This document shows, in pieces, positions 14,181 through 54,907 of a stretch of DNA of 60,741 bases. Made by a program: the position numbers and the translations under genes. The stretch comes from Pelotomaculum sp. PtaU1.Bin035 (lineage in GTDB: Bacteria; Bacillota; Desulfotomaculia; Desulfotomaculales; Pelotomaculaceae), in contig MVRN01000043.1 in the NCBI GenBank assembly GCA_002067965.1, positions 1 through 60,741 on the forward strand, written 5' to 3'. The notes under the pieces are model-generated. The model was not told the origin of the DNA and did not search any database. It was given only the letters and a program-made list of their open reading frames with translations. Within the stretch, counting starts at the first letter, position 1. Each line of letters starts with the position of its first letter.

Positions 14181-14372
14181 AAAAAACCCCACACATGCCG
14201 TGAACCCCCAAAGTTCGAACCTGTTCTCACAGGTGGGTGCCCTCCTGGATGATTTTCGTTTCCTCTACTGGGAGGCATGCAAGCCACATCCAGAGTCCGG
14301 ACTCCCTTTTTTATGGTGTTGGCTCAAAACTTCAAGGTTGATCACGCACACAGCAGGGTATTTTTTTTTACA
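14181..14372 (-). ncRNA. ssrS: 6S RNA
   Basis: The two ends of this roughly 190-base minus-strand segment form a long imperfect closing stem: ACCCTGCTGTGTGCGTG near the 5' end faces CACGGCATGTGTGGGGT near the 3' end. The interior is a largely unpaired rod with the Firmicute-like segment GTTTTGAGCCAACACC. The RNA ends in a T run (complement of 14181-14186). A plausible promoter (TTGTAA, 17 bases, TAACAT) lies just upstream. The position between aspS and rarA matches a known 6S location in Bacillus (next to aspS). It binds sigma-A RNA polymerase in late growth. The adjoining 14373-14558 holds only its promoter and no gene. Confidence 0.82.
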
Positions 14373-17671: not shown

Positions 17672-17950
17672 TTAAAAACAAACCCGTCCCTGGCCTATGC
17701 GTCAGCATTGCCAGGGACGGGTTTGTTGCCCGTGGTGCCACCCTGTTTGGATAATAATGATGTAATATCCCTCTTAGCCTTTAACGGGGCTTTCCGGGCC
17801 GGCCTACTGGTGCCGTGAACTGCACGTTTGGCGGCCGCTCCCGGGAGTTTTTCAATACCTGTTTTTGAGGAAGGCTTTCAGTCGACGGCCTCCCCTCCCT
17901 GCCAAAAACTCAAATATTTACTCGGCCCGGTCATCGCTTTCGTTTGCTGA
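17672..17950 (-). promoter_or_regulatory. T-box leader of hisS-aspS, predicted to read tRNA-Asn
   Basis: The hallmark AGGGTGGCACCACGG lies on the minus strand (complement of 17730-17744). A terminator stem follows: AAACCCGTCCCTGGC (17680-17694) against GCCAGGGACGGGTTT (17710-17724), with a U run. The Stem I start GATGACC and its AGTA bulge are visible near 17920-17940. Opposite AGTA, the 3' strand reads GAAAAACU, offering AAC (complement of 17847-17849) as specifier. The acceptor-pairing bulge is UGGC, which needs discriminator G. That fits tRNA-Asn or tRNA-Asp and not tRNA-His, whose discriminator is C. The specifier assignment is by hand folding. Confidence 0.85.
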
Positions 17951-39135: not shown

Positions 39136-40545
39136 TTACTTGCCTTCCCTGATAACCCGGGCATTTACGCTGTAGCGGGAAAATATCTGACGGCGTGCTT
39201 GAGCAGCCAGATGCAGCAATTCGTGGCGGCCCAGGATGACTTTGTACTTGCCGGTTTCAGCGGGTGCCATGCTGGCTCCGTTAAAAGACTGGGCATGTTC
39301 GTATAATCTTACAGCCCTTGTTTGGTCTGCTATAACCGATAATTCATACTGTTCAGGGCGGTACAACCTGCCGTTGAAATAAGAAAAACTACGGTCGCCG
39401 ATGCCGCCAAAACTATACCATGTATAAATATCCCTACCCCTATGTTTTAAGATAAACCTTTCACGGGACATTTCTGCTAAATCCAACCTGCTTACTTTGT
39501 ATGAATTATATTCAAAACCATTTTCGTATACCCGTACTATGGCATAGGAACAGGGAAACTGTACGGTTGCGGCTACTTCCACGTAAGGAAGGTTTCCGGT
39601 TGTCAACTGGTTGGTCGTTATCTTATTTCGGTGTATATGACCTGAAAAAACACTCTGAACGCCGGGGAAACACTTAATAACCTTTTGGAGATCCCTGTAA
39701 TTTTTCGTCCCAAACCACGTATCCAAACCGTTGCAGGGATGATGTAGGAATAGAAAGGAGGGGTTGCCTCTGCCTTTTTTTAATATACTTTCAATCCATT
39801 GCAGTTGGGTGGAATCGATGTGTCCCCAATTGTCATTTTGTCTACAGGAATCAATCAGAAGAAACTGATAATCCCTGAACATTATATTTGCGTGGGTATT
39901 TTCCCGGTTGGCCACATAGCTGAGGAAACCTTGCTTGCCCATTCCGGAATCGTTTACATAGCAGTCGTGGTTGCCAATACAGAGAAAATAAGGTGTATTG
40001 CCAAAGCATGGCAGCAGTTGGTTGCGCAAACCCAAATACTGCGGCTGGCGGGCTGAATCAGTCAGGTCGCCCGTAATTACAGCCAGATCGATGTTCCGTT
40101 TCTTGCTGTCCGCAATGCATTGTATTAAAAGATCACCCGAGTACTCGACAAGTTTGCCAAAATATTTCTCATTTATATCATCCGTAGATTCTCCATAGGA
40201 AATGTGTGTGTCGCTTAACAGCGCGAAGCTGAACAGGTACTTTCCTTCCGGCCGGGGTAGGGTTGTAAAAGAATTGAGAGAGCCGTGAGCGCCGTTGCAT
40301 TCTGCTTGATACCAGTAGCGTGTGGAGGGTTTCAGGTTAAATACTTCAGCCCAGTGAAATTCAGTATTTGATCCAAAAGTATGTTTTACTAAGTTTAGTG
40401 AATCTTCTCCAATACATATAGTTGTATTTGCCCGCTGTTTGGGAGTAACCCAGGTTATTACGGCGTGGTTGCTGCTCACGGTACACAATTCTTCGTTTTT
40501 AATTATCGTACCGGATAACATAATTCTTGATATTTCCCCCATCAA
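39136..40545 (-). CDS. Metallophosphoesterase with N-terminal fibronectin-like domain
   Basis: A calcineurin-like phosphoesterase of about 469 residues. An N-terminal beta domain of the purple-acid-phosphatase kind (AVITWVTPKQRANTTICIG, LKPSTRYWYQAE) is followed by the metal-binding blocks LLSDTHISYG, VITGDLTD, CIGNHDCY, LHHPCNG and SGHIHRNK. No signal peptide is seen. The substrate is unknown. The start is unsure: ATG 40542 or 40521 (no site has ideal spacing). It is convergent with the hydrogenase operon and has no obvious partner gene. Confidence 0.82.
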   Translation of the reverse strand: MMGEISRIMLSGTIIKNEELCTVSSNHAVITWVTPKQRANTTICIGEDSLNLVKHTFGSNTEFHWAEVFNLKPSTRYWYQAECNGAHGSLNSFTTLPRPEGKYLFSFALLSDTHISYGESTDDINEKYFGKLVEYSGDLLIQCIADSKKRNIDLAVITGDLTDSARQPQYLGLRNQLLPCFGNTPYFLCIGNHDCYVNDSGMGKQGFLSYVANRENTHANIMFRDYQFLLIDSCRQNDNWGHIDSTQLQWIESILKKGRGNPSFLFLHHPCNGLDTWFGTKNYRDLQKVIKCFPGVQSVFSGHIHRNKITTNQLTTGNLPYVEVAATVQFPCSYAIVRVYENGFEYNSYKVSRLDLAEMSRERFILKHRGRDIYTWYSFGGIGDRSFSYFNGRLYRPEQYELSVIADQTRAVRLYEHAQSFNGASMAPAETGKYKVILGRHELLHLAAQARRQIFSRYSVNARVIREGK

Positions 40546-40743
40546 AACAGTTTAGAAAACTAACGCGGGTGTTTTATCCTTGATATTAATAATTTAGAAT
40601 ATTTTATGTATCGCAGTGTTAACTGGTCACTGTGCAAATAGTGCTCACCGCTGTAAGCAGGATCGGGGATAGTATTAATAGGGTCCTTGATTCAAGCAAA
40701 TGCGAAAAAATGCATTATCATGTTAATATGTAGCAAAGTCCTA

Positions 40744-40772
40744 TTTACATTGGAACAAAAGTACTATATAAA
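40744..40772 (+). promoter_or_regulatory. Sigma-A promoter of the riboswitch-led operon
   Basis: TTTACA (40744-40749), 17 bases, TATAAA (40767-40772), immediately before the riboswitch. The part upstream (40546-40743) holds no gene. Confidence 0.65.
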
Positions 40773-40775
40773 TAA

Positions 40776-40880
40776 TTTAACTGGAAAGGCAAATATAACA
40801 AAATCCGAAAACGCATAGCTACGGGTATGAAGTGCCAATAGTAGTGTTAGATGTTCGGGCTGCCGGGGAAATAAATAGAT
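40776..40880 (+). promoter_or_regulatory. GEMM-I (c-di-GMP-type) riboswitch
   Basis: Conserved blocks occur in the right order: AAAGGCAAAT (40785-40794), then ACGCATAGCTACGGG, where the consensus is GACGCAAAGC-TACGGG, and then CGGGCTGCCG, the usual closing block. The outer pairing ATTTA/TAAAT frames them. Two bases differ from the common consensus (AACGCATAGC), so ligand preference, c-di-GMP or cyclic GMP-AMP, is open. A terminator follows directly and serves as expression platform for the kinase/activator genes. Confidence 0.78.
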
Positions 40881-40887
40881 TGTTGAA

Positions 40888-40918
40888 AAAATGCCCCGCT
40901 TACCTGCGGGGCATTTTT
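40888..40918 (+). terminator. Riboswitch-controlled terminator
   Basis: AAAATGCCCCGC (40888-40899) pairs with GCGGGGCATTTT (40906-40917). It ends the riboswitch leader 130 bases before the kinase start and has T runs on both strands. Confidence 0.82.
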
Positions 40919-41050
40919 ACGGCCAATGTAAACACCAATACCAGGGAATTTATTTCTGGGCTATGGATGCGACAGTAAAAATAATTTTTGTCAGGAAATA
41001 TACTATAGGTTAATCCGAGAAGCATGCAAGTAGTGCTGGAAAGGAAATAC

Positions 41051-42604
41051 ATGAGCAAAACACCCGTGCGAATAAATAAATCTACCATATTGGTTATTGG
41101 AGACAACAAGGCCACGAGGCAGCTGCTGCGCCATGTCCTTGAAAGTGACGGCTATGCGGTAATAGAGGTAGAGGATGGTACGCAGGCACTGTCTGTTTAT
41201 GATCAACTGCGGCCGGACCTTATCTTAATGGATGCTATGGACGGTATTGCTACTTGTGCCCGGCTGCGGGAACTGCCCGGTGCCAGTCGTGCGCCGGTAC
41301 TGGTGATAACAGAAGTTGAAGATGATGAAACCGTTGTTTTTGCTTTTAAAGCCGGAGCTTCCGACTATATTGTCAAGCCGATTAGCGTAGGGGTGCTGCG
41401 ACAGCGTGTGAGTCGCTTGCTGCATGCCAGGCAAACCGCGTTATTGCTTGAACAAAGTGAGACAGAATACAGGCAGGCTGAGATTGAAATGCGTATGACG
41501 GCAAAAGTGTTTGAGAGCATCGCGGAAGGGATTGTGGTCACTGACACCAACGGTATCATCGAGTTAGTCAACCATGCTCTCACTGTAATCACTGGCTACA
41601 GCGAGAAAGAAGTTGTAGGCAAACACATACAATTTTTGGAATCAGACGAAGTAAAATTTTATAATATTATTTATGAATCCCTGCAGGCAACAGGACAATG
41701 GCAGGGGGAATATTGGCTCAAATGCAAGAGTGGCGAGGCTGTTCAGGTTTGGCTGTCTAAAAGCGCCATCAAAGACGATTGCGGAGAAACAGTGCAGTTT
41801 GTCGGCATCTTCATCGATATGACTGAACAAATAAGGGTGAATGAGGAGCGGCAGCGGCTTCAGGAGCAGGCGGCGCAAGCACAGAGGCTGGCTTCCCTGG
41901 GTATTATGTCGGCCGGCATCGCCCATGAAATAAACCAGCCGCTAAACTCCATAAAAGTATTGGCCGACGGTATGCTTTACTGGCATAATAGAGGTCAAAC
42001 CCCGAATCTGGAAAAAATTATCGGCAACTTACAAAAAATCTCGGCTCAGGCCGGGCGGATTGACGAAATTATAAAACACATGCGTTCTTTTGTCAGCAAT
42101 AAGCCTACGGCTCAACTCGCGCCCTGCGGTTTGAACGAAGCTGTGCTCGGCGTGCTGGATATGCTCGGCCGGCAGTTTTCATCTCACGGAATTATCGTAG
42201 AAAAAGCTCTTTCGGACAGCTTGCCGGCGGTATCTGGCAATGCAAGCAGGCTGGAGGAAGTGATAATCAACTTGCTGGTCAACGCGATGCAGGCCTTGGA
42301 TGCGGTTGGCCGTACTGAAAAAGTAATATGTTGCTCAACATGGCTTGAAGAGGAAAAGGTGGTTCTTGAAGTCAGCGACAATGCCACCGGGATTAGTAAC
42401 GAGATAAAAAAATATATATTTGAGCCGTTTTTTACGGCTAAAAAGGCCGGAGAAGGAATGGGTTTAGGCCTGTCAATCGTTCAGTCTATTATTTTCAGTT
42501 TCAACGGTGAGATTAAGGTGATGAACAATGAAAAAGGCGGGACATCCTTCAGAATAGAACTACCGGCCATAAAAAACCAGGCTGAACGGGGTGATCACCG
42601 TTGA
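41051..42604 (+). CDS. Receiver-PAS histidine kinase
   Basis: A soluble sensor kinase of 517 residues. Residues 12-130 are a receiver (phosphoacceptor LILMDAMDG, Asp61), although the acidic pocket reads IGDNK, so it keeps only one of the two usual acidic residues. A PAS domain follows (ESIAEGIVVTDTNGIIELVN, then WQGEYWLKCKSGEAVQVW and VGIFIDMTEQ). The HisKA box is GIAHEINQP with His292, and the ATPase has VSDNATGI and GLGLSIVQSI. The ATG at 41051 follows GGAAAGG. It has no transmembrane segment. It is expressed behind the riboswitch and overlaps the activator gene. Confidence 0.9.
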   Translation: MSKTPVRINKSTILVIGDNKATRQLLRHVLESDGYAVIEVEDGTQALSVYDQLRPDLILMDAMDGIATCARLRELPGASRAPVLVITEVEDDETVVFAFKAGASDYIVKPISVGVLRQRVSRLLHARQTALLLEQSETEYRQAEIEMRMTAKVFESIAEGIVVTDTNGIIELVNHALTVITGYSEKEVVGKHIQFLESDEVKFYNIIYESLQATGQWQGEYWLKCKSGEAVQVWLSKSAIKDDCGETVQFVGIFIDMTEQIRVNEERQRLQEQAAQAQRLASLGIMSAGIAHEINQPLNSIKVLADGMLYWHNRGQTPNLEKIIGNLQKISAQAGRIDEIIKHMRSFVSNKPTAQLAPCGLNEAVLGVLDMLGRQFSSHGIIVEKALSDSLPAVSGNASRLEEVIINLLVNAMQALDAVGRTEKVICCSTWLEEEKVVLEVSDNATGISNEIKKYIFEPFFTAKKAGEGMGLGLSIVQSIIFSFNGEIKVMNNEKGGTSFRIELPAIKNQAERGDHR

Positions 42605-44064
42605 ATATTTTACTTGTCGATGATGACCATGCCGGCCGTGCGTACCTAGGCGAGTTTTTGCGTGAAATCGGCCATATAGTGTTGGAAAGCGCCGATGGGT
42701 ACGCCGCCCTGGACGCTTTTCTCTCCAAAGAGTTCCACCTGGTGCTTAGTGATATCAGGATGCCGAAAATGTCCGGGATCGAGCTGCTGCAAAAGATCCG
42801 CGGCCTGCCGGGCGGGCAGAGTGTGGACATTATCCTGATCACCGGAGACGGTGAACTGCAGACGGCCATTGATGCCTTGCGCGCCGGCGCCTATGACTAC
42901 CTGCTCAAGCCAATTAATATTGAGGAACTTGTAAAAGTCACCGAACGGGTGGCTGAGCACCAGGCTTTAAAGCGGGAAAACGAAGCTTTGACCGGTAGAT
43001 TTGTAGATGTGGTCAAAGCGGTTACAGAAGAAACAAGGCAGGAATTGTCACGCTTCAAAAAAGCTTATTATGAATCAGTAGGTTTAGGCCAAATAGGCGT
43101 ATTTTCAGAAGCCATGAAAAAGGTTATCCAACTGGCGCAAAAGCTACGGACCGACAGTTCTGTTCCCGTCTTAATTCAGGGAGAGACGGGCACCGGGAAG
43201 GAGGTAGTCGCCAGGTACATCCATTACGGGGAAGGAGTTGCGGCCGCTCCTTTTATTGATATAAATTGCGCGGCGATTTCACCCGGTATTTTTGAAAGTG
43301 AATTATTTGGTTACGAAGCGGGGGCTTTTACTGGCGGTCTTGCCAAAGGACAAAAAGGAAAACTCGATATTGCCATGGGAGGTACTCTTTTTCTTGATGA
43401 GATAGGTGAGATACCAACCGACTTGCAAGCCAAATTACTGCGTGTTATCCAGGAAAAAGAATTCTACCGGGTTGGCGGCCTAAAAAAAATAAAAACCGAT
43501 ACACGTATTATCTGTGCCACTAATATCGAAATTGAGGAAAAAGTAAGACAAGGGAAGTTTCGCCGGGATTTATACTATCGGCTAAATGTCGGGAGGGTTT
43601 ACCTTCCGCCGCTGAGACAGCGGACAGAGGACATTCTTCCTTTAGCAAGAATGTTCCTGACCCGGTTTACCCGGGAGAAAGGAAAGCGTTTTGAGGGGAT
43701 TGGCGAAAAGGCGGCAAATGTTTTGTTGTCATACCAGTGGCCGGGGAATGTTAGGGAGTTAAAAAACGCCATGGAATGGGTAGTATTGATGTGGGACGAT
43801 GTTGAAGTAAAACCCGCCCACCTTGGTATTATACAGAGAGCTGGTACTTGCATTGTTCCCGGTAAGGCTGCGGAAGCCGGGATACTGGACCATAAAAATT
43901 TCACCCTGCCGCCTGACAGTCTGCCGCTGGAAGAATACACCAATAATATTATACTGAAAGCGTTGCGTATGCATAGAGGAAACAAAACAGAAACTGCCAA
44001 GTACCTTGGTATCTCGCGCCGCTCTCTGTATAGCCGGCTAAAATACCTTATGCCCGGCGGATAG
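42601..44064 (+). CDS. NtrC-type sigma-54 response regulator
   Basis: A 487-residue activator of RNA polymerase sigma-54. The receiver has Asp51 (LVLSDIRMPKMSG). The AAA+ domain has Walker A GETGTGKEVVARYI, the sigma-54 contact loop GAFTGG, and Walker B GGTLFLDEIGE. The C-terminus has a Fis-type HTH (GNKTETAKYLGISRRSLYSR). The start is TTG 42601, overlapping the kinase stop by four bases. The kinase is its likely partner, and a -24/-12 promoter lies just downstream, upstream of cheY. Confidence 0.93.
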   Translation: MNILLVDDDHAGRAYLGEFLREIGHIVLESADGYAALDAFLSKEFHLVLSDIRMPKMSGIELLQKIRGLPGGQSVDIILITGDGELQTAIDALRAGAYDYLLKPINIEELVKVTERVAEHQALKRENEALTGRFVDVVKAVTEETRQELSRFKKAYYESVGLGQIGVFSEAMKKVIQLAQKLRTDSSVPVLIQGETGTGKEVVARYIHYGEGVAAAPFIDINCAAISPGIFESELFGYEAGAFTGGLAKGQKGKLDIAMGGTLFLDEIGEIPTDLQAKLLRVIQEKEFYRVGGLKKIKTDTRIICATNIEIEEKVRQGKFRRDLYYRLNVGRVYLPPLRQRTEDILPLARMFLTRFTREKGKRFEGIGEKAANVLLSYQWPGNVRELKNAMEWVVLMWDDVEVKPAHLGIIQRAGTCIVPGKAAEAGILDHKNFTLPPDSLPLEEYTNNIILKALRMHRGNKTETAKYLGISRRSLYSRLKYLMPGG

Positions 44065-44289: not shown

Positions 44290-44305
44290 AGGCATGTGTT
44301 TTGCA
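44290..44305 (+). promoter_or_regulatory. Sigma-54 (-24/-12) promoter of the chemosensory operon
   Basis: AGGCATGTGTTTTGCA has GG at 44291-44292 and GC at 44303-44304, separated by exactly ten bases as in TGGCACG-N4-TTGC. The predicted start is about 44316. The cheY Shine-Dalgarno (GGAGGTG) follows at 44332. The expected activator gene is directly upstream. Confidence 0.72.
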
Positions 44306-44343: not shown

Positions 44344-44721
44344 TTGTTGGGTAAGCGGATCCTGATCGTAGACGATGCGGCGTTTATGCGAATGATGATT
44401 AGAAGTATTGTTACGAAAAACGGCTATGAGGTTGTTGACGAAGCCGGTAATGGACAGGAGGCGGTAGAATTGTATAAACTGCATAAGCCGGATCTGATAA
44501 CCATGGATATCACTATGCCGGATATGAACGGGATCGAGGGAGTCAAGGCAATTCGCAGCGTCGATCCTGGCGCCAAAATTATTATGTGCAGCGCCATGGG
44601 CCAGCGGCATATGGTAATGGAGGCTATTGAGGCGGGTGCAAAAAGTTTTATAGTAAAACCTTTTAAGCAGGGACAGTTGCTTCAAACGATTGAAAAAGTT
44701 TTGGCAAGGGACGGCTTGTAA
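44344..44721 (+). CDS. cheY: CheY-type response regulator
   Basis: A stand-alone receiver of 125 residues. It has the acidic pair in ILIVDDAAFMR, the phosphoacceptor in LITMDITMPDMNG, the conserved CSAMGQ switch threonine/serine region and the lysine in FIVKPFK. Start TTG 44344 or 44347, after GGAGGTG. It is first in an operon of chemosensory genes and is the probable output of CheA. Confidence 0.92.
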   Translation: MLGKRILIVDDAAFMRMMIRSIVTKNGYEVVDEAGNGQEAVELYKLHKPDLITMDITMPDMNGIEGVKAIRSVDPGAKIIMCSAMGQRHMVMEAIEAGAKSFIVKPFKQGQLLQTIEKVLARDGL

Positions 44722-44741
44722 CAGAATTGGGAGGCGGGAGT

Positions 44742-45227
44742 ATGAATATTTTACTGATCGATGATGACGGGGATTGTTTGGATGGTCTGGCCACCGCGCT
44801 TGAACCGGCAGGGAACCGGTGCGATAAGTTCACCGCTCCCGGGGAAGCCGTGGAAGCTTACCAGCAAAACCAATATGATGTAGTCATTACTGATATGAAA
44901 ATGCCCGGTATGAATGGAATTCAAGTATTAAAAAAGATCCGTTCACTCAATCCGGAAGCAAAGGTAATCATTAATACCGGTTACGGGGATGTGGATACTG
45001 CTATTGCTGCAGTTAATAACGGGGCATACGCATTTTTTGGCAAGCCGATTGATTTGGCCGATTTAATGGAAACCCTTGAAAAAATTGAACGTGAAATCGG
45101 CGGAAAAAAGAGGGCTGAATTCGAGCACGCCCGCCTGGCCATGGAATACGCGCGGTTGAAGCAGGCTTACGAGGATCTTGCAAAAGCTATTGAAGAAAAA
45201 CGCAGGCAAATAAGGGGCACTATGTAA
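44742..45227 (+). CDS. Response regulator with C-terminal coiled coil
   Basis: A receiver (LLIDDDGDCLDG, then VVITDMKMPGMNGIQVLKK, GKPIDL) followed by about 45 residues of charged helix (EFEHARLAMEYARLKQAYED) likely to form a coiled coil. The total is 161 residues from ATG 44742 (after GGGAG). It has no DNA-binding or enzymatic output domain. It may be a phosphate sink or an adaptor in the CheA pathway. Confidence 0.85.
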   Translation: MNILLIDDDGDCLDGLATALEPAGNRCDKFTAPGEAVEAYQQNQYDVVITDMKMPGMNGIQVLKKIRSLNPEAKVIINTGYGDVDTAIAAVNNGAYAFFGKPIDLADLMETLEKIEREIGGKKRAEFEHARLAMEYARLKQAYEDLAKAIEEKRRQIRGTM

Positions 45228-45241
45228 AAAGGTGGTTAACT

Positions 45242-47548
45242 ATGGTTAACGGTGATTTTGATGAAAAACTGGAAATGGTTAAGTACTTTGTTAACGACAG
45301 CCGGGAACTGTTAGACGATGTGGAGCCGCAAATCATCGCCATGGAGGAGAAAGCGCTTTCCAGCGGGAAAATCGACGAGGAAATTCTCAACGCGATTTTT
45401 CGCCTTTTCCACTCGCTGAAAGGCTCAGCTTCTTTTTTAGATCTGCAAACAATTATTAGTGTAACGCATGAAGCGGAAACCCTGCTGGATATTTTCCGTA
45501 AAGGCCAGACTGCCGTGGAACCCGGTTACGTCGACCTGCTTATCCGTACCAGTGACTTTATCAGGAATATTTTGGACACAGTGGAGCGGCAGTTGAACGA
45601 TAATGGTTATGAATCCGGCGCCGCGGTTATTATTGAAGATCTACAGAAAACTATCGCAGCAGTTAGCTTGAGTCAAGGGAATTCGGGTAATGTAGAGGCG
45701 GCAGGCTCAATTCCTTCAGAGGAAGCCATGGATGAACCGGCAGACGCTGCTGAATTTACTATATCCGGCAACCTGGAAGAGATGAGTTTGGCTATTACTC
45801 CGGAAATGACCCAGCGTTTTGTTGAAGAAAATCTCGAACTATTGGATGATGCGGAAAAAACGTTGCTCGCGTTGGAGAAAGAACCCGGTGATTTAGAAAG
45901 CGCGGGGCAAGCTTTCCGCGCGCTTCACAGTTTTAAAGGAAATTCGGGCTTTTTGGGGTATGCGGATCTGGAAGAATTGAGCCATCATGCGGAAACCTTG
46001 CTTGATAAAATTCGGGAAGGCGAGAAAGTTTGTGATTCTGTGGCAATATCCTTCCTGCTTATTGCTGTGGATGCGTTAAGGGATGGGATACTTCAGATTA
46101 ATCAGGGCATTTCCTTGGAGATACCTGGACAGGTTGAAATAATTACCCACCTGGACAAGCTATCCGGTGATACTGACGGAAGTTTGGACAAAGGAGGGCC
46201 GGAACAGAAATGCCAGGCGCTAGAAGTAGCGGGCGGATTTGGACAAACACACGCAGATGAAATTCCAGAGAAAAGGCCGGATCAAGCGGAAGAAAGCCGG
46301 AAACCCTTAAAGGAGCCGTTCAAAGAAGAAAATGCGGTAAAGAATAGGGGTGAAAAACAACCACCTTCCGGACAACAACAGGCAATCCGGGTAGATATTG
46401 AAAAGCTGGATAAACTTCTGGACCTGGTGGGTGAGTTGGTAATCTCAGAAGCAATGGTTGCCAACAACCAAGATTTAAAAGGGTTGCAGTTAGACAGGTT
46501 TGAAAAAGCTGTTTTGCAGTTGGATAAAATCACCAGAGACATTCAGGAAGTAGCGATGTCCATGCGGATGATCCCGCTTGCTGGCACTTTCCGTAAAATG
46601 GTGCGTCTGGTGCGTGACCTTTCTCAAAAAGCAAATAAAAAAGTTAGTCTGGAAATAATCGGCGAAGAGACTGAAGTAGATAAAACAATAATCGAGCAGA
46701 TTTCCGACCCTTTGGTGCACTTAATTCGCAACGCTGTGGACCATGGCCTCGAAAGTCCCGAAGATCGCCTGGCTGTGGGAAAACCGGAATCGGGGCGGGT
46801 AACAATCGAGGCAAAGCACTCGGCTGGTGAGGTTTGGATTATTGTAGAAGATGACGGCCGGGGTCTGGACAGGGAAAAGATTTTAAAAAAAGGGATAGAG
46901 CGCGGGTTAATCAAGAACGAAGACCGGGATTTTAAGGATGAAGAGGTGTGGCGGCTGATCTTTGAGCCGGGCTTTTCTACTGCGGAGAAGATCTCCAATA
47001 TATCCGGCCGTGGTGTCGGTATGGATGTGGTGAGCCGCAATATTGAAAAACTTCGGGGCAAGGTCGATGTTCGCAGCAGGCCCGGCATCGGGACGATGAT
47101 CGCCCTTCGTATTCCCCTGACCCTGGCTATTATCGAGGGGATGGTGGTCAGAGTCGGCCATACGCGCTATACTATTCCAATTAATTCGATCAAGGAGTCT
47201 TTGCAGCCTAAAAATTGGCAAATTACCTTTACTCCGGACAACTTGGAAATAATTAGTATTCGCGGGGAGCTTTTGCCGGTAGTACGCTTGCATGAGCTGT
47301 ATAACGTGCAGCCGGACTGCCGGTTGCTGACCGACGGTATCCTTGTTGTTGTGGAAAGTGAAGAAAAAAAATCTTGCCTGTTCGTTGACGAAGTAGTCGG
47401 CCAGCAACAGATTGTGATCAAGGGGTTGTCCAACTACCTGGGACATGTCAGGAGCGTCTCAGGATGTGCTATCCTCGGTGACGGTGATATCAGTATGATC
47501 CTGGATGTATCTGATTTAATAAACTCAGTAGAAGGCGCATCGGCATAA
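45242..47548 (+). CDS. cheA: Chemotaxis histidine kinase CheA with two Hpt domains
   Basis: A 768-residue kinase. Two Hpt domains carry phosphohistidines in FRLFHSLKGSASF (about His57) and FRALHSFKGNSGF (about His229). After a low-complexity linker come the dimerisation domain (IRVDIEKLDKLLDLVGELVI), the ATPase (HLIRNAVDHGLESP, VEDDGRGLD, GRGVGMDVV), and a CheW-like domain at the C-terminus. Duplication of the Hpt is seen in alternative (non-flagellar or multi-output) systems. It follows the receiver gene by 14 bases. Confidence 0.95.
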   Translation: MVNGDFDEKLEMVKYFVNDSRELLDDVEPQIIAMEEKALSSGKIDEEILNAIFRLFHSLKGSASFLDLQTIISVTHEAETLLDIFRKGQTAVEPGYVDLLIRTSDFIRNILDTVERQLNDNGYESGAAVIIEDLQKTIAAVSLSQGNSGNVEAAGSIPSEEAMDEPADAAEFTISGNLEEMSLAITPEMTQRFVEENLELLDDAEKTLLALEKEPGDLESAGQAFRALHSFKGNSGFLGYADLEELSHHAETLLDKIREGEKVCDSVAISFLLIAVDALRDGILQINQGISLEIPGQVEIITHLDKLSGDTDGSLDKGGPEQKCQALEVAGGFGQTHADEIPEKRPDQAEESRKPLKEPFKEENAVKNRGEKQPPSGQQQAIRVDIEKLDKLLDLVGELVISEAMVANNQDLKGLQLDRFEKAVLQLDKITRDIQEVAMSMRMIPLAGTFRKMVRLVRDLSQKANKKVSLEIIGEETEVDKTIIEQISDPLVHLIRNAVDHGLESPEDRLAVGKPESGRVTIEAKHSAGEVWIIVEDDGRGLDREKILKKGIERGLIKNEDRDFKDEEVWRLIFEPGFSTAEKISNISGRGVGMDVVSRNIEKLRGKVDVRSRPGIGTMIALRIPLTLAIIEGMVVRVGHTRYTIPINSIKESLQPKNWQITFTPDNLEIISIRGELLPVVRLHELYNVQPDCRLLTDGILVVVESEEKKSCLFVDEVVGQQQIVIKGLSNYLGHVRSVSGCAILGDGDISMILDVSDLINSVEGASA

Positions 47549-47588
47549 CTAATCACAGATATGCTGAGTGTTCGTGGAGGTGAAAGAG

Positions 47589-48086
47589 ATGAGTCTAAAA
47601 GAGAGGTTGGATGCGGATCTTCTCAATGACGAGGAGGATGATGAGGATACTCAGGAAGACAAGTTTCTGACTTTTATACTTGGTAAGGAAGAATATGGTA
47701 TAGAAATTCGTTTTGTAACTGAAATAATCGGTATTCAAAATATTACCGAGGTTCCGGACATGCCCCATTATATCAAGGGAGTAATTAATTTGCGGGGCAA
47801 GGTTGTCCCGGTTATGGACGTGCGCCTGCGTTTCGGGGTGAAGGAACGTCCCTACGATGATCGTACCTGCATTGTAGTTATTAATATTGATGATCAATCA
47901 GTTGGCTTGATTGTCGACCGGGTTTCTGAAGTGCTGGATATCCCAAAAACAGAAATTGAACCTCCCGCGAGGGTGAAAAAAGGTGAAAACAGCCGTTTTA
48001 TCCAGGGCATGGGTAGGGTTGGCGAACAGGTAAAAATACTGTTGAACGCTCATAAATTGCTTTTTGACGAAGAGCAGCAGTACTAA
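47589..48086 (+). CDS. cheW: Chemotaxis coupling protein CheW
   Basis: A 165-residue adaptor linking receptors to CheA. It opens with a highly acidic segment (LLNDEEDDEDTQED) and then has the CheW fold (FILGKEEYGIEIRFVTEIIG, PHYIKGVINLRGKVVPVMDV, VGLIVDRVSEVLDI). The ATG at 47589 has GGAGGTG upstream; a longer frame from 47568 has none. It sits between cheA and the first cheR. Confidence 0.94.
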   Translation: MSLKERLDADLLNDEEDDEDTQEDKFLTFILGKEEYGIEIRFVTEIIGIQNITEVPDMPHYIKGVINLRGKVVPVMDVRLRFGVKERPYDDRTCIVVINIDDQSVGLIVDRVSEVLDIPKTEIEPPARVKKGENSRFIQGMGRVGEQVKILLNAHKLLFDEEQQY

Positions 48087-48115
48087 ACCTCTGCCCGGCA
48101 GGAGGAAGTTAATAA

Positions 48116-48727
48116 ATGGCGTTTACTTATTTTTTCCGGGATATGCATACCCTGGAGCTAATTATTAACCACGTTGTACCGTATGTCACCGGCCGCAGCA
48201 AAATCCGGGTTTGGGATGCCGGCTGCGCCATGGGCCCGGAGCCATACTCATTGGCCATTATGTTTGCCGAAAATATGGGGCGCTTTTCGTTCCGCAACCT
48301 CCGCATTGATGCGACAGATTTGGATGGCAGCGACTTATTTGAGAAGATAATTTCCGAGGGGGTGTACCAAGAAGAAGAACTTAAGCGGATTCCGCGGGAC
48401 TTGTTTAATAAGTATTTCAAGCTGGCAGGGAATGCGGGCCGCTACAAAATTGACGAATTAATCAGAAGCCGGGTATTTTACCGGAGGCATGACCTACTCA
48501 CACTCAAACCTGCCGGAGAGGGCTTCAGTTTGATCGTGTGCAAGAATGTATTGCTGCACTTTGAGCAGGCGGAGCGGGTCGAAGTAATCAAAATGTTCCA
48601 CGCGGCACTGGCGCCGGGCGGTTACTTTGCCACGGAGCAGACGCAGAAACTTCCGGAGGAAACGGCCCGCTTGTTTGAACAGGTAGCCGCTGACGCTCGA
48701 TTATTCAGGAAAGTTGAGGTGCGTTAA
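48116..48727 (+). CDS. Short CheR-type methyltransferase without the N-terminal domain
   Basis: A 203-residue protein that begins at the catalytic part of CheR: YFFRDMHTLE, then the SAM site VWDAGCAMGPEPYSLAIMF and CKNVLLHFEQAERV. The N-terminal helical domain that reads the receptor is missing. GCAGGAGG precedes the ATG, so it is a true start and not a truncation by frame error. It could methylate receptors with altered specificity or be a regulator. A full-length cheR lies 5 kb downstream. Confidence 0.85.
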   Translation: MAFTYFFRDMHTLELIINHVVPYVTGRSKIRVWDAGCAMGPEPYSLAIMFAENMGRFSFRNLRIDATDLDGSDLFEKIISEGVYQEEELKRIPRDLFNKYFKLAGNAGRYKIDELIRSRVFYRRHDLLTLKPAGEGFSLIVCKNVLLHFEQAERVEVIKMFHAALAPGGYFATEQTQKLPEETARLFEQVAADARLFRKVEVR

Positions 48728-48786
48728 TGAAAGTCATCAGTCTCAGGAGAAACAGCAAGATCTATTGCTGCGGCGCTGGAAGAGAT
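48727..48786 (+). pseudogene. Short remnant of a gene start
   Basis: An ATG overlapping the cheR stop (TAATG) opens 19 codons reading MKVISLRRNSKIYCCGAGR. The opening resembles the N-terminus of MBL-fold hydrolases, then stops. The following bases read in another frame as LEEIINKTITNVQIVRL, again with no further gene. It is probably the residue of a lost gene. Confidence 0.35.
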
Positions 48787-48857
48787 AATTAATAAAACAA
48801 TTACTAATGTGCAAATAGTTAGATTACTAATCTGTAATGATGTGGAGGGATAAATGT

Positions 48858-51800
48858 ATGAAGTGGTTTTTAAATTTAAGGATCGGTACTAAGCTTTTAC
48901 TCAGCTTTATCATTGTTGCTTTGAGCGCCGGGCTGGCCGGCTATATGGGTATTAAAAATATCAGGTCAATCAATAAGGCCGGTATTGAGATGTATGAATA
49001 CAATACCGTGTCGATAAATCAGATCGGAAAAGTTGCCGTATCCTTTCACCAGATACGCGCTTGCTTTAGAGATATCTTTCTTGAAAAAGATAATGGGGCG
49101 AGAAGTAAATATGTTGCCGATATCAAAGAGCTTGATAAACAAATTGAAAGCAGCTTGGCTGTATTGGAAAAAACTGTTCAAACAGATGAGATCCAGCGGG
49201 AATTCAGCAGGTTAAAGGTACTCAACAATAACTTTGACTCAGTCTTGGAACGGATGATGGCTCTTGTCCTGGCAAACCAGGATGAGCAGGCGATGGCTTT
49301 GATGCGGGCCGAGGGGGCTCCTGTAACAAATGAACTTAATGCGACAATAGATAAATTGAGTGGCCTTATAGAATCCCAGGCAAAGCAAAAATCCGGGATG
49401 AACACGGCTGGTGCTAACAGCGCGGCAAATAATATGCTGATTATATTGTTTGCCAGTATGGCCCTGGCGATCTGCTTGGGTATTTTTGTGGCCCGGTTGA
49501 TTAGCCGGCCGGTGAATAAGCTCGCCGAAGCCGCTGACAAGATGGCTCTCGGTGATGTCAACGTGAATGTGGAAGCGGATACGATGGATGAAATCGGCAT
49601 GTTGTCACAGTCTTTCAAGGCTATGGTGGGAAATATCCGGGCGTCGGCACTGGCTGCCGAAAAGGTTGCGGCAGGCGATCTGAGTGTCGAGGTCAAAATC
49701 CGGTCGGACAATGACTTCCTAGGTAAGAACCTCTGCGCCATGGTCAATACGATCAAGGAAATGCTCAAAGAAACCGACGTCCTGATCCGGGCCGTCCGGG
49801 AAGGCAAGCTGGATACCCGTGGCAATGCGGCGGCCTATGCGGGCAGTTGGGGTGATTTAATCGGCGGCATGAACGGTTTGATTGAAGCCGTGGCCAGCCC
49901 GGTTAATGAAATAGCAATGGTCCTTAACCGGATGACGGTAAATGATTTTACGCAGAAGATGGTAAAAGAGTATAGTGGTGTTTGGAACGAACTCAAGAGT
50001 TCATCCGACGGTGTCAATGCCCTTATGGCGCGCGTGGTGAAGGTGGTAAATAATATCAGCGACGGTGACCTCGGAGATTTGGACGGCTTGAAGAAAATCA
50101 GGCAAAGAAGTGAAAACGACGTATTAATACCATCTTTTGTCAAGATGATGGAATCAATCCAAAGCCTGGTCACCGACACTAATGCCTTATCCGCGGCGGC
50201 AATGGAAGGCAAGCTCGACACCCGGGTGGATGAAACGAAGCACCAGGGTGATTACCGGAAAATTATCGAAGGGGTCAACAACACTCTGGACGCGGTGATC
50301 GGGCCGCTGAACGTGGCGGCGGAGTATATTGACCGGATCAGCAAGGGTGATATTCCGCCCAGGATTACTGACAGCTATAACGGCGATTTCAACGAAATCA
50401 AGAACAATCTGAATACTTGCATTGATGTGATGAATGGCCTGCTTCATGAGGCTGACAACCTGATCCAGGCCGCCCGGGCCGGCAAGCTGGATTACCGCGG
50501 CGACGCGTCAGCTTTTACAGGCGGCTGGAGTGAACTCGTTGGCGGAATGAATAACCTGATGGGGGCTGTCGAGGAGCCGGTTAGTGAACTAGTGGCAGTT
50601 CTCGCCGGGATGGCGCAAAATGACTACGGCATGGAGATAGTAAAAAGTTATAGCGGGCTATGGAACGATCTCAAGGAGGCAACTAATAATGCCAACAAAC
50701 ATAACAGGCGTATCGTTGAGGTTTTCAATAACATCGGCAACGGTGACCTTGGCGATCTGGACAGCTTTAAGAAAATAGGTAAAAGATGTGAGAAAGATGA
50801 GTTTATACCTGCTGTTATCAGAATGATGGAGACAATTAAAAGCCTCGTTGCCGACGCCGACAGCCTGGCTGTTGCGGCGGCCCAGGGCAAGCTCGACACC
50901 CGCGCCGACGCTTCAAAGCACAACGGTGACTTCCGCAAGGTCATTGAAGGGTTCAACAGGACTCTTGACGCAGTGATTGGTCCATTAAACATGGCTGCAG
51001 AGTATGTCGACCGGATCAGCAAGGGTGATATACCGCCGGTGATTACCGATACTTATTACGGCGACTTCAACGAGATTAAGAACAACCTGAACGGCTGCAT
51101 TGACGCCGTTAACGGGTTGCTGGCAGAAACCAACACCTTGATCCAGGCCGTCGAAAACGGCAGGCTGGAGACCCGCGGCAACGCCGGGGCCTTTGCCGGC
51201 GACTGGGGCCGGCTGGTGGGCGGCATGAACGGCCTGATGGAAGCTGTGGCCGAGCCGGTTAACGAACTGATCGCCATTCTTGGCCGGTATGCGGTCAATG
51301 ACATCACCATGCGGGTGAAAAAAGAATACTCCGGTGTGTGGAATGACCTTAAAGAGGCCACCAACGAAATCGGCGCCTGCTTAGAAGTAATGAATCAAAC
51401 GATAACTCATATCAGCAGAGGCGACCTTTCGGACCTGGAGGAATACAAGCGAGTGGGACGGAGAAGCGAGAACGACGAGTTGCTCCCCGGATTTATCAGG
51501 ATGATCGAGGCGATTAAAAAGCTGACCGAGGATGCTGATATGCTGGCCGGGGCGGCGGTGGAAGGCAAGCTTGACACGCGGGCCGACGCCTCTAAGCACG
51601 AAGGCGAGTACCGTAGGATTATCGACGGGGTTAATAAAATGTTGGACGCGGTAATCAATCCGATTAATGAAGCCGCCGGGTGCCTGAAGGAAATGTCCCG
51701 CGGCAACCTGGACGTGAGAGTTACCGGAAACTACCTGGGTGATCACGCGATCATTAAAGACGCTCTCAATACCACTCTTGGGGTGTTAAACGACATACTC

Positions 51801-52898
51801 AAGAAAGAGTCGGTCAGGTGCCTGCAAGAGATGGCTAAAGGAAACCTTGACGTGGCGGTCACGGGTGATTACCTGGGTGACTACGCCATCATGAAAAATG
51901 CGCTGAATACAACGATTCATGATCTGAATGAGGTTTTAAGCCAGATTTCCATTGCAATTGAACAAGTAAGCACCGGCGCGCAGCAGGTATCTGATTCCAG
52001 CCAGTCGCTTTCGCAAGGCGCCGCCGAGTCGGCCAGTTCGATGGAGCAGGTTACTTCCTCAATGCATGAAATTAACGCTCAGATCAAGCAAAATGCCGAA
52101 AACGCCGTTCAGGCCAACCAGCTTGCCACTCAAGCCAGGGTCCACGCGGAAAAGGGCGATGAACAGATGGCCCAAATGGTCAGGGCCATGGAGGATATTA
52201 ATGAATCAGCCACCAATATATCAAAAATTATTAAAGCTATTGATGAAATAGCCTTCCAGACCAATCTGCTGGCTTTAAACGCGGCGGTAGAGGCGGCCCG
52301 CGCGGGCAAGCACGGCAAAGGGTTTACCGTGGTGGCCGAGGAAGTTAGAAATCTGGCCCAGCGGAGTGCCAAGGCAGCCAAAGAAACCGCTGAAATGATC
52401 GAAGGCTCGATCAAGAAAACAGAAGTCGGCACAAGAATTGCGGAAGAAACATCAAAGGCGCTTTCAGAAATAGTATCCGGCTCGATTAAAGTGACCGACT
52501 TTATCAGTGAAATAGCATCGGCTTCAAAAGAGCAGTCTCTTGGCATCGGGCAAATCGACCAGGGCTTGAATCAGGTTGATCAGGTAACCCAGCAAAACTC
52601 GGCCAGCGCGGAAGAATTGGCCGCCGCTAGTGAGGAAATGTCCAGCCAGACTATGATGGTTAAAGAGATGCTGGAAAAATTTAAATTGAAAAGACGAGGC
52701 AATGGCTATGGGAACGTGATGACGGGCTTCCCGGTCGGTGTGAAAACCAAGAAGATGTCGCAGCGGACAACTCAGGGCAACGGACAAAAAGCTGCCAAGA
52801 CAGCTATGGCGGAAGTTGCCGCGACATCAGAAGAAAACTTTATGCAAAGGCCGGAAGGCATTATTTCTTTGGATGACACTGACTACGGCAATTTTTAG
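48858..52898 (+). CDS. Giant methyl-accepting chemotaxis protein with tandem HAMP-like repeats
   Basis: A 1346-residue receptor. A transmembrane helix (LLLSFIIVALSAGLAGYMG) is followed by a four-helix extracellular sensor of about 160 residues, then a second helix (MLIILFASMALAICLGIFVA) and a HAMP domain. Residues 305-982 are three consecutive repeats of exactly 226 residues. Two short HAMP-like units follow (SRGNLDVRVTGNYLGDHA, AKGNLDVAVTGDYLGDYA). The signalling domain has IDEIAFQTNLLALNAAVEAA and VVAEEVRNLAQRSAKAAKET. The ATG at 48858 follows GGAGGG. Poly-HAMP receptors exist, but this length and regularity are unusual. Confidence 0.94.
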   Translation: MKWFLNLRIGTKLLLSFIIVALSAGLAGYMGIKNIRSINKAGIEMYEYNTVSINQIGKVAVSFHQIRACFRDIFLEKDNGARSKYVADIKELDKQIESSLAVLEKTVQTDEIQREFSRLKVLNNNFDSVLERMMALVLANQDEQAMALMRAEGAPVTNELNATIDKLSGLIESQAKQKSGMNTAGANSAANNMLIILFASMALAICLGIFVARLISRPVNKLAEAADKMALGDVNVNVEADTMDEIGMLSQSFKAMVGNIRASALAAEKVAAGDLSVEVKIRSDNDFLGKNLCAMVNTIKEMLKETDVLIRAVREGKLDTRGNAAAYAGSWGDLIGGMNGLIEAVASPVNEIAMVLNRMTVNDFTQKMVKEYSGVWNELKSSSDGVNALMARVVKVVNNISDGDLGDLDGLKKIRQRSENDVLIPSFVKMMESIQSLVTDTNALSAAAMEGKLDTRVDETKHQGDYRKIIEGVNNTLDAVIGPLNVAAEYIDRISKGDIPPRITDSYNGDFNEIKNNLNTCIDVMNGLLHEADNLIQAARAGKLDYRGDASAFTGGWSELVGGMNNLMGAVEEPVSELVAVLAGMAQNDYGMEIVKSYSGLWNDLKEATNNANKHNRRIVEVFNNIGNGDLGDLDSFKKIGKRCEKDEFIPAVIRMMETIKSLVADADSLAVAAAQGKLDTRADASKHNGDFRKVIEGFNRTLDAVIGPLNMAAEYVDRISKGDIPPVITDTYYGDFNEIKNNLNGCIDAVNGLLAETNTLIQAVENGRLETRGNAGAFAGDWGRLVGGMNGLMEAVAEPVNELIAILGRYAVNDITMRVKKEYSGVWNDLKEATNEIGACLEVMNQTITHISRGDLSDLEEYKRVGRRSENDELLPGFIRMIEAIKKLTEDADMLAGAAVEGKLDTRADASKHEGEYRRIIDGVNKMLDAVINPINEAAGCLKEMSRGNLDVRVTGNYLGDHAIIKDALNTTLGVLNDILKKESVRCLQEMAKGNLDVAVTGDYLGDYAIMKNALNTTIHDLNEVLSQISIAIEQVSTGAQQVSDSSQSLSQGAAESASSMEQVTSSMHEINAQIKQNAENAVQANQLATQARVHAEKGDEQMAQMVRAMEDINESATNISKIIKAIDEIAFQTNLLALNAAVEAARAGKHGKGFTVVAEEVRNLAQRSAKAAKETAEMIEGSIKKTEVGTRIAEETSKALSEIVSGSIKVTDFISEIASASKEQSLGIGQIDQGLNQVDQVTQQNSASAEELAAASEEMSSQTMMVKEMLEKFKLKRRGNGYGNVMTGFPVGVKTKKMSQRTTQGNGQKAAKTAMAEVAATSEENFMQRPEGIISLDDTDYGNF
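49770..51803 (+). repeat. Three tandem 678-bp repeats inside the receptor gene
   Basis: Equivalent codons begin at 49770, 50448 and 51126, each exactly 678 bases apart. Each unit has an A half (such as GKLDTRGNAAAYAGSWGDLI) and a B half (such as GKLDTRVDETKHQGDYRK) with the DIPP segment ISKGDIPPRITDSYNGDFNE. Copies share long runs of bases but have drifted, so they are old tandem duplications. Confidence 0.9.
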
Positions 52899-52951
52899 CC
52901 AGTAAATCACCTGCCAACGGGGGTATCAACTGCAACGGAAGATGTAAAAAG

Positions 52952-52983
52952 GGGAGAGCGGATAATCAACTGTCTGCTCTCCC
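52952..52983 (+). repeat. Intercistronic stem-loop before cheR
   Basis: GGGAGAGC (52952-52959) pairs with GCTCTCCC (52976-52983). No T run follows. It may limit transcript decay or set the cheR/cheB level below that of the receptor. Confidence 0.55.
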
Positions 52984-53004
52984 ATATAAGGAGTGCAATA
53001 ATTT

Positions 53005-53838
53005 TTGATTGGCCACATCAAGATTACAAACGAAGAATTTATGCTAATCAGCAGGTTGGTCTACCAAAAATTCGGTATCAAATTGAGTGAAAAAAAGCGC
53101 GCCCTGGTTGTCAACCGTTTACACAAAGTGCTGTATTTGGGTAAATTTCACAGCTTTACAGAATATTATAATTATGTGATTCAGGAGCCCAGCGGCCGGG
53201 CATTGCTAACCCTGGTGGACCAAATATCCACAAATCACACTTACTTTTTCCGGGAGAAGGACCATTTTGATTATTTCACAACTGAAGCGCTGCCGCGGAT
53301 TACGGAAATATTGCACAAAAAGAACAAAAAGGATCTCAGAATCTGGTGCGCCGGCTGTTCTTCTGGTGAGGAACCCTATACACTGGCAATGATTATCAGC
53401 AATTATTTTAGTGATACCCATTTAAAAATTAATATTGGTATTCTGGCGACTGATATTTCCATAAGTGCTTTAGATAAAGCAAAAGCCGGTATCTATCCGG
53501 CAGACAGGCTGTCCCAGATACCTCCAGTGTACCGGCAGAGACATTTCCGCCCGCTAAGTAACGGTAGTTGGGAAGTTAAGCAGAGCTTGAGGGAAATGGT
53601 GCTCTTCCGGCGCTTGAATTTAATTCGCCCGGATTATCCGTTTAAAGGACTTTTTCAAGCTGTTTTCTGCCGTAATGTTATGATATATTTTGATCAAACC
53701 ACTCAGCAGGCGCTGGTAGAGCGTTTCCACCGGTATACCGAGCCGGGGGGATATTTGTTTATCGGGCATTCTGAAAGTATAGACCGGTCATCAGGCCTGT
53801 ATAAATATGTCCAACCTTCAATTTACCAAAGAATATAA
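53005..53838 (+). CDS. cheR: Chemotaxis protein methyltransferase CheR
   Basis: A complete 277-residue CheR that methylates receptor glutamates. The N-terminal helical domain (KITNEEFMLISRLVYQKFGI) is followed by the catalytic domain with STNHTYFFREKDHFDYF, the SAM site CAGCSSGEEPYTLAM and CRNVMIYFDQTTQ. It starts at TTG 53005 after an AAGGAG a little distant (about 12 bases). Downstream cheB begins 22 bases after its stop. Confidence 0.95.
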   Translation: MIGHIKITNEEFMLISRLVYQKFGIKLSEKKRALVVNRLHKVLYLGKFHSFTEYYNYVIQEPSGRALLTLVDQISTNHTYFFREKDHFDYFTTEALPRITEILHKKNKKDLRIWCAGCSSGEEPYTLAMIISNYFSDTHLKINIGILATDISISALDKAKAGIYPADRLSQIPPVYRQRHFRPLSNGSWEVKQSLREMVLFRRLNLIRPDYPFKGLFQAVFCRNVMIYFDQTTQQALVERFHRYTEPGGYLFIGHSESIDRSSGLYKYVQPSIYQRI

Positions 53839-53860
53839 AGTGATTAATAGGAGCCAATTT

Positions 53861-54907
53861 ATGAGAAAGATTAAAGTATTGATTATTGATGATTCAGCGC
53901 TGGTCAGGGATATTCTCGCCCGTGGACTGGTTATGGACCCGGAGATAGAGGTGGTTGGGACGGCATCCGACCCTTATGTTGCTCGTGACAAGATAGTGCG
54001 ATTGAAACCGGATGTGCTCACGCTGGATGTGGAGATGCCCAAGATGGACGGGGTGGAATTTTTACGCCGGCTGATGCCGCAGTACCCGTTGCCGGTAGTG
54101 ATGGTCAGTGCTCTTACCAAAAAAGGGGCGGTCATCACACTGGCCGCCCTGGATGCCGGCGCCGTTGAAGTTGTTGCCAAACCAAGCGCCGATATAGCGC
54201 GCGGTTTAAACTCGATGTTGGGGGAGTTGCGGGCTAAGGTTAAAATAGCTGCCAATACTAATGTTAGTGCCTGGAAAGTCAATAAGAAATCTCCCTCCAG
54301 GCTTGTTCGAGCGGAAGGGCAGGCTTTGGCCGAATCAACGGACAAAGTGGTTGCCATCGGGGCTTCAACCGGTGGTACCCAAGCAATCCGCCGGATTTTG
54401 GAGAGCTTCCCTTCCACCATGCCCGGCGTTGTGGTTGTGCAGCATATGCCAGTAGGTTTTACCAGACATTTCGCTGAGAGTTTGAATGAGATATGCGCAA
54501 TGGAAGTAATGGAAGCTAAAACCGGGGACAGGGTGCTACCCGGACGGGTGCTGATCGCGCCGGGTGACTGTCATATGCGGGTGCGCCGCTCCGGCGGCGT
54601 TTATCTGGTTAATTGCCAGCCGGGTGAGAACGTCTGTGGACACTGCCCCTCAGTGGAGGTGCTTTTCCAATCAGTGGCAAAATATGTAGGGGCCAACGCC
54701 GTCGGGGTCATGCTTACCGGTATGGGCAGTGACGGTGCCGACGGCATGGTGGCTATGCGCCGGGCCGGCGCCAGGACTATCGCGCAAGATGAAGCAACTT
54801 CGGTTGTTTTCGGTATGCCCAAGGTGGCATACGAGCGGGGTGGGGTGGACTTCCTGCTGCCGTTAAACAAGATATCGAACACTATTTGCGGCTTACTGGC
54901 AGGGTGA
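53861..54907 (+). CDS. cheB: Chemotaxis methylesterase CheB
   Basis: A 348-residue receptor methylesterase/deamidase regulated by CheA. The receiver has Asp56 (LTLDVEMPKMDG). The esterase has the catalytic Ser169 (GASTGGTQA), His195 (HMPVGFTRHFAESL) and the Asp in GMGSDGADGM. The ATG at 53861 follows AGGAG; an in-frame codon at 53807 overlaps cheR and lacks a site. It is last in the operon and is followed by a terminator. Confidence 0.95.
   Translation: MRKIKVLIIDDSALVRDILARGLVMDPEIEVVGTASDPYVARDKIVRLKPDVLTLDVEMPKMDGVEFLRRLMPQYPLPVVMVSALTKKGAVITLAALDAGAVEVVAKPSADIARGLNSMLGELRAKVKIAANTNVSAWKVNKKSPSRLVRAEGQALAESTDKVVAIGASTGGTQAIRRILESFPSTMPGVVVVQHMPVGFTRHFAESLNEICAMEVMEAKTGDRVLPGRVLIAPGDCHMRVRRSGGVYLVNCQPGENVCGHCPSVEVLFQSVAKYVGANAVGVMLTGMGSDGADGMVAMRRAGARTIAQDEATSVVFGMPKVAYERGGVDFLLPLNKISNTICGLLAG

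Follow-up and report, generated by a model that had tools for sequence, protein, structure and literature searches.

Class I c-di-GMP riboswitches (GEMM-I, RF01051), represented by Vc2 and Vc1 of V. cholerae and Bc1 of B. thuringiensis, are the closest described relatives of the leader analyzed here. The cGAMP-I riboswitches of Geobacter (GEMM-Ib), a known variant class of the same fold family, bind cGAMP and carry A at position 20, G being the c-di-GMP-type letter. In Vc2, the ligand is contacted by G20, A47 and C92 (PMC4744006), and some published class I aptamers of the GYRA type lack the tetraloop receptor (PMC11218506). For control by c-di-GMP above a two-component-type system there is a precedent in cmrRST of Clostridioides difficile, a two-regulator, one-kinase system under positive control of a class II c-di-GMP riboswitch (PMC8844915; PMC6200980). 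Literature searches on degenerate c-di-GMP riboswitches found nothing directly relevant.

The element lies in a 60,741-nucleotide stretch of Pelotomaculum sp. PtaU1.Bin035 (the window, meaning the whole of the DNA analyzed), and the coordinates of its features are collected in Table 1. With GEMM-I it shares the core blocks, the equivalents of G20, A47 and C92, helix P3, the promoter-aptamer-terminator layout and a motility or chemosensory target. Unlike GEMM-I, it scores below the Rfam cut-off, lacks the P2 stem, the GNRA tetraloop and the tetraloop receptor, and has U in place of A48. Like the cmrRST leader (Cdi-2-2), it stands upstream of a two-component-type system; that leader differs in its class II aptamer, its proven positive control and its combination with an invertible DNA switch. 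Judged from its sequence, the element is a descendant of a GEMM-I leader, yet no clean GEMM-I riboswitch, and the reading favored here (probability about 0.6) is that of a leader that attenuates transcription and derives from a c-di-GMP-I riboswitch, with control by c-di-GMP probably weak or gone.

Table 1. Positions in the window of the leader, its parts and the genes downstream.
Feature	Position	Strand	Basis
12-mer GTCCTATTTACA; last six bases TTTACA, predicted -35 box	40738..40749	+	pattern search
Predicted -10 box TATAAA, 17 bases after TTTACA	40767..40772	+	sequence and alignment with C64 and C126 leaders; inferred
Diverged c-di-GMP-I (GEMM-I) aptamer	40778..40867	+	RF01051 and lineage model
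Degenerate site of the P2 stem and GNRA tetraloop	40794..40809	+	2/6 pairs, loop AAAA
Helix P3 region, retained, without CUAAG/UAUG tetraloop receptor	40817..40860	+	model alignment
Possible antiterminator strand GCCGGGG, overlapping P1 3′ strand	40862..40868	+	folding prediction only
Intrinsic terminator, 13-bp G+C-rich stem AAAAAUGCCCCGC / GCGGGGCAUUUUU	40887..40918	+	sequence
REC-PAS-HisKA-HATPase sensor kinase	41024..42604	+	Pfam
NtrC-type response regulator (REC, Sigma54_activat, HTH_8)	42601..44064	+	Pfam
Candidate sigma-54 promoter AGGCATGTGTTTTGCA (GG-N10-GC)	44290..44305	+	pattern search
Chemosensory operon: CheY, REC protein, CheA, CheW, CheR-like, poly-HAMP MCP, CheR, CheB	44344..54907	+	Pfam

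With permissive filters, RF01051 matched the element over the full length of the model at a best score of 21.4 bits (E = 0.07 in a local search and 0.08 over the genome), under the 35 bits that Rfam sets as the gathering score. When the whole of Rfam was run against the window at gathering scores, 6S RNA, a T-box leader and tRNAs were listed and no GEMM; the 6S RNA (14182-14362, - strand) and the T-box leader (17710-17943, - strand) were both strong matches. The absence of a GEMM at gathering scores would, taken alone, suggest a false call; the weak RF01051 match was followed with a lineage covariance model (R1), for which 29 canonical GEMM-I aptamers from the same genome and order were used, and with a comparison of promoters. 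Searched over both strands of the window with filters off, R1 scored the element at 23.5 bits (E 3.6e-4) and its runner-up at 8.4 bits, and a sequence-only model gave the element an E of 5e-5; all 38 canonical aptamers aligned scored at least 59.9 bits. The genome (2.54 Mb) holds 6 good GEMM-I aptamers and 10 GGDEF matches.

The promoter region carries the 12-mer GTCCTATTNACA, which was picked after inspecting the three leaders concerned and which, as an exact pattern, occurs 3 times in the genome (window 40738, C64:25703 and C126:10206), its reversed form being equally frequent. Each of the three copies sits 39-40 nt 5′ of a GEMM-I aptamer, the diverged one of the element included, and the other two precede the best aptamers of the genome, C64:25743 (79 bits) and C126:10245 (76 bits). 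With these two leaders the element has in common GTCCTATTNACA over the -35 box, the promoter-to-aptamer spacing and a GCUACGGGU block; they differ from it in keeping P2, the tetraloop and the receptor and in having weaker terminators of a different sequence. A coincidence of the 12-mer at exactly such a place and spacing appears very unlikely, and descent from a GEMM-I leader is concluded from the lineage-model scores together with this shared 12-mer and spacing. A promoter and terminator scanner detected neither the promoter nor the terminator of the leader. They were identified instead by eye, using folds and an alignment of the leader with its two sisters; by this reading, transcription would start from a sigma-70-type promoter.

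The motif GTCCT[AG]T is enriched in GEMM-I leaders of this order: of 28 canonical aptamers, 7 have it in the 80 nt before them, where shuffles predict 0.09. It occurs at window 40738 and upstream of GEMM-I leaders in L001, L002, L004, L074, L076, L082, L087, L127 and L128, is often half of a palindrome, AGTCCTATT...AATAGGACT, and in L002 and L125 has TGTCGAAAAA behind it, a sequence similar to a Spo0A box. The motif may be the operator of a regulator. At L127 (genus g2), a palindrome of the same type precedes another diverged GEMM-I element, the third, scoring 27.2 bits.

On the + strand, the conserved blocks of the aptamer are AAAGGCAAA (40785-40793), AACGCATAGC (40810-40819) and CGGGCTGCCG (40856-40865), and the GEMM-I-like blocks confirmed at 40778-40867 read AAAGGCAAA, ACGCAtAGC and GGGCUGCCG. 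The ligand-contact equivalents are kept (G20 as G 40788, A47 as A 40815, C92 as C 40863), as is that of C93; the equivalent of A48 is U, and model position 33, in the diverged junction, has changed from G to A. The G at 40788 is not the cGAMP-type letter. Among columns conserved at 90% or more in the 38 canonical aptamers, 26 of 34 are kept, against a canonical minimum of 28. P3 retains 9/10 and 5/5 model pairs, counts that lean towards structure in an alignment fitted to the model. The stem at the position of P2 falls short of the 5-6 of 6 pairs found in the 38 canonical aptamers, its loop is no longer GAAA, and the receptor CUAAG...UAUG in P3 is replaced by AUGAAG...UUAG. The losses are thus seen, at the level of sequence, to be concentrated in the P2/tetraloop/receptor module. 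The same genome has a second GEMM-I-like element below threshold (C88:7514, L104 7514-7598; 19.2 bits), which forms 3/6 P2 pairs and is also damaged in the receptor. The sequence-only reading had named the element a GEMM-I riboswitch with a slightly unusual core and had proposed RF01051 as the check. Its conserved blocks were recovered and the family homology holds (R1 score and 12-mer); the RF01051 search gave no match at the gathering score in the window, and with the score under the Rfam cut-off and two structural hallmarks failed, a working switch is not established. The core does deviate, and "slightly" understates the loss of P2 stem, GNRA tetraloop and receptor.

The terminator hairpin, AAAAATGCCCCGC-TTACCT-GCGGGGCATTTTT, starts 20 nt past the aptamer. 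It most likely belongs to the leader, because the gene neighbor upstream (39136-40545) is divergent and no upstream + strand gene would need to end there. For the leader (40744-40925), folding gives -50.8 kcal/mol (z -3.3 relative to shuffles), of which the terminator contributes about half. When folding was carried to 40895, the predicted structure was an aptamer-like form with P1 (CUGG/CCGG; -23.9 kcal/mol); when carried to 40901, GCCGGGG was predicted to pair with CCCCGC of the terminator 5′ arm (-25.5 kcal/mol); and with the full hairpin included, the terminator fold won. P1 and the antiterminator are both predictions, and the aptamer-like and antiterminator folds differ by less than 2 kcal/mol. 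The layout would be that of an OFF switch, with small differences in energy, and the outer part of P1 may precede the point where transcription starts.

The kinase starts at 41024 or at 41051, the ATG at 41051 having the better ribosome-binding site. Its N-terminal receiver reads VIGDN where receivers usually carry an acidic pair, and phosphorylation may be impaired. The regulator combines REC, AAA+ Sigma54_activat and HTH_8 domains, and a sigma-54 gene is encoded in the genome, as expected of a sigma-54-dependent NtrC-type regulator; its sigma-54 contact loop, like that of most orthologs, is GAFTGG rather than GAFTGA, differing in the last residue, and the loop of the homolog in L048 reads GAYNGV. 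The 280-base gap between the regulator gene and CheY contains AGGCATGTGTTTTGCA at 44290, and in four orthologous loci the stretch from the regulator to the CheY or REC-CheA genes has a similar GG-N10-GC site (L041 at 5315; L114 at 7517, - strand; L049 at 9512; L015 at 2952). The pattern is not enriched window-wide (20 observed, 33 expected), and its weight lies, on this pattern evidence, only in its position in the orthologous gaps. Given these sites, the regulator would likely drive the chemosensory operon. The chemoreceptor of the operon (48837-52898, 1353 aa) has seven HAMP_2 repeats and a four-helix-bundle sensor domain. Canonical GEMM-I leaders in the same genome precede a flagellar operon and HD-GYP genes (identities read from sequence rather than from a family search), and given these and the GGDEF matches a chemosensory target is normal for the regulon. 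Of what the sequence-only reading had said about the region past the aptamer, the strong terminator was borne out as a 13-bp G+C-rich hairpin, and the regulatory genes as a histidine kinase followed by a response regulator that has a domain for interaction with sigma-54. Its remark that the arrangement is not the common one was partly right: cmrRST is a precedent, and motility and chemotaxis genes are ordinary GEMM targets, in this genome as well.

No GEMM was found upstream of the kinase in the orthologous kinase-regulator loci examined (L041, L114, L115, L117, L118, L049, L053 and others; L015 is truncated by a contig end on its upstream side), which leaves no phylogenetic covariation to draw on for the leader. 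Searching the DNA of 60 relatives with the leader as query returned chance-length matches only; neither the same leader in any close relative searched nor a conserved look-alike family in the 60 was found, among genomes that included no other member of the same genus. In G029, a regulator homolog near a contig end has a strong GEMM-I (77.5 bits) shortly downstream. Because the orthologous kinase genes examined lack a GEMM upstream, recruitment of the leader probably took place in this lineage, perhaps from a duplicated GEMM-I promoter-leader unit, and the leader would have diverged since. Tandem GEMM-I aptamers about 180-200 nt apart were observed in L075, L081 and L092.

In the favored explanation, a sigma-70-type promoter would give a transcript with a GEMM-I-derived aptamer region followed by the intrinsic terminator, and read-through would allow expression of the sensor kinase and the NtrC-type activator, which would switch on the chemosensory operon from the putative sigma-54 promoter. 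The folding predictions suggest an ancestral OFF switch, in which bound ligand would stabilize the aptamer and P1 so that the terminator forms, and in which, with ligand absent, GCCGGGG would pair with the terminator 5′ arm so that transcription continues. The present copy would act mainly as a fixed or partial attenuator, and control by c-di-GMP is considered probably weak or gone because the P2 stem, tetraloop and receptor that preorganize the aptamer are lost. The homology, the spacing of the 12-mer, the kept pocket nucleotides and P3 pairing beside the loss of the module, the terminator with no upstream gene to end, the good GEMM-I aptamers and GGDEF matches of the genome and the diverged copies at C88 and L127 all argue for such an attenuator. 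Against it, the pocket nucleotides and P3 are better conserved than uniform decay predicts, and a minimal aptamer might still work.

That the leader is still a working, strongly diverged c-di-GMP-I riboswitch, in which pocket and P3 suffice, docking of P2 and the tetraloop is dispensed with and c-di-GMP still switches the terminator, is possible but doubtful: the retained G20, A47, C92 and C93 equivalents, the pairing of P3, the possible competition of P1, antiterminator and terminator, the typical GEMM targets downstream and the precedent of receptor-less GYRA-type aptamers speak for it, but must be set against P2 reduced to 2/6 pairs, the lost tetraloop and receptor, the change of A48 to U and a score far under that of every canonical aptamer aligned. 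An aptamer that has shifted to another cyclic dinucleotide or an unrelated molecule would fit the diverged junction (A48U, G to A at model position 33) beside a retained P3, and variant GEMM classes exist (RF03167); with G in place of the cGAMP-type A at position 20 and no look-alike family in the 60 relatives, a changed ligand is highly improbable. Least probable, and largely refuted, is a chance resemblance in an unrelated leader with an ordinary attenuator, a view that the RF01051 score under the gathering score would allow but that the lineage-model E value, the distance to the next match and the 12-mer common to two real GEMM-I leaders at the same spacing contradict. What would be new in the attenuating leader described here is the P2-less form and the putative cascade; it is unlikely that a natural c-di-GMP-I aptamer working without P2 and tetraloop docking, or shifted in ligand, stands atop a cascade from leader RNA through kinase and NtrC-type activator and sigma-54 to a chemosensory operon.

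The occurrence of GTCCTAT before several GEMM-I leaders hints at a DNA-binding regulator acting on the same genes. A leader that still responds would demonstrate with how small a part of the GEMM-I fold c-di-GMP can be sensed, and the second messenger would then stand over a cascade of two-component system, sigma-54 and chemosensory genes. An unresponsive one would exemplify a step in riboswitch turnover at which the sensor is lost and promoter and terminator are kept.
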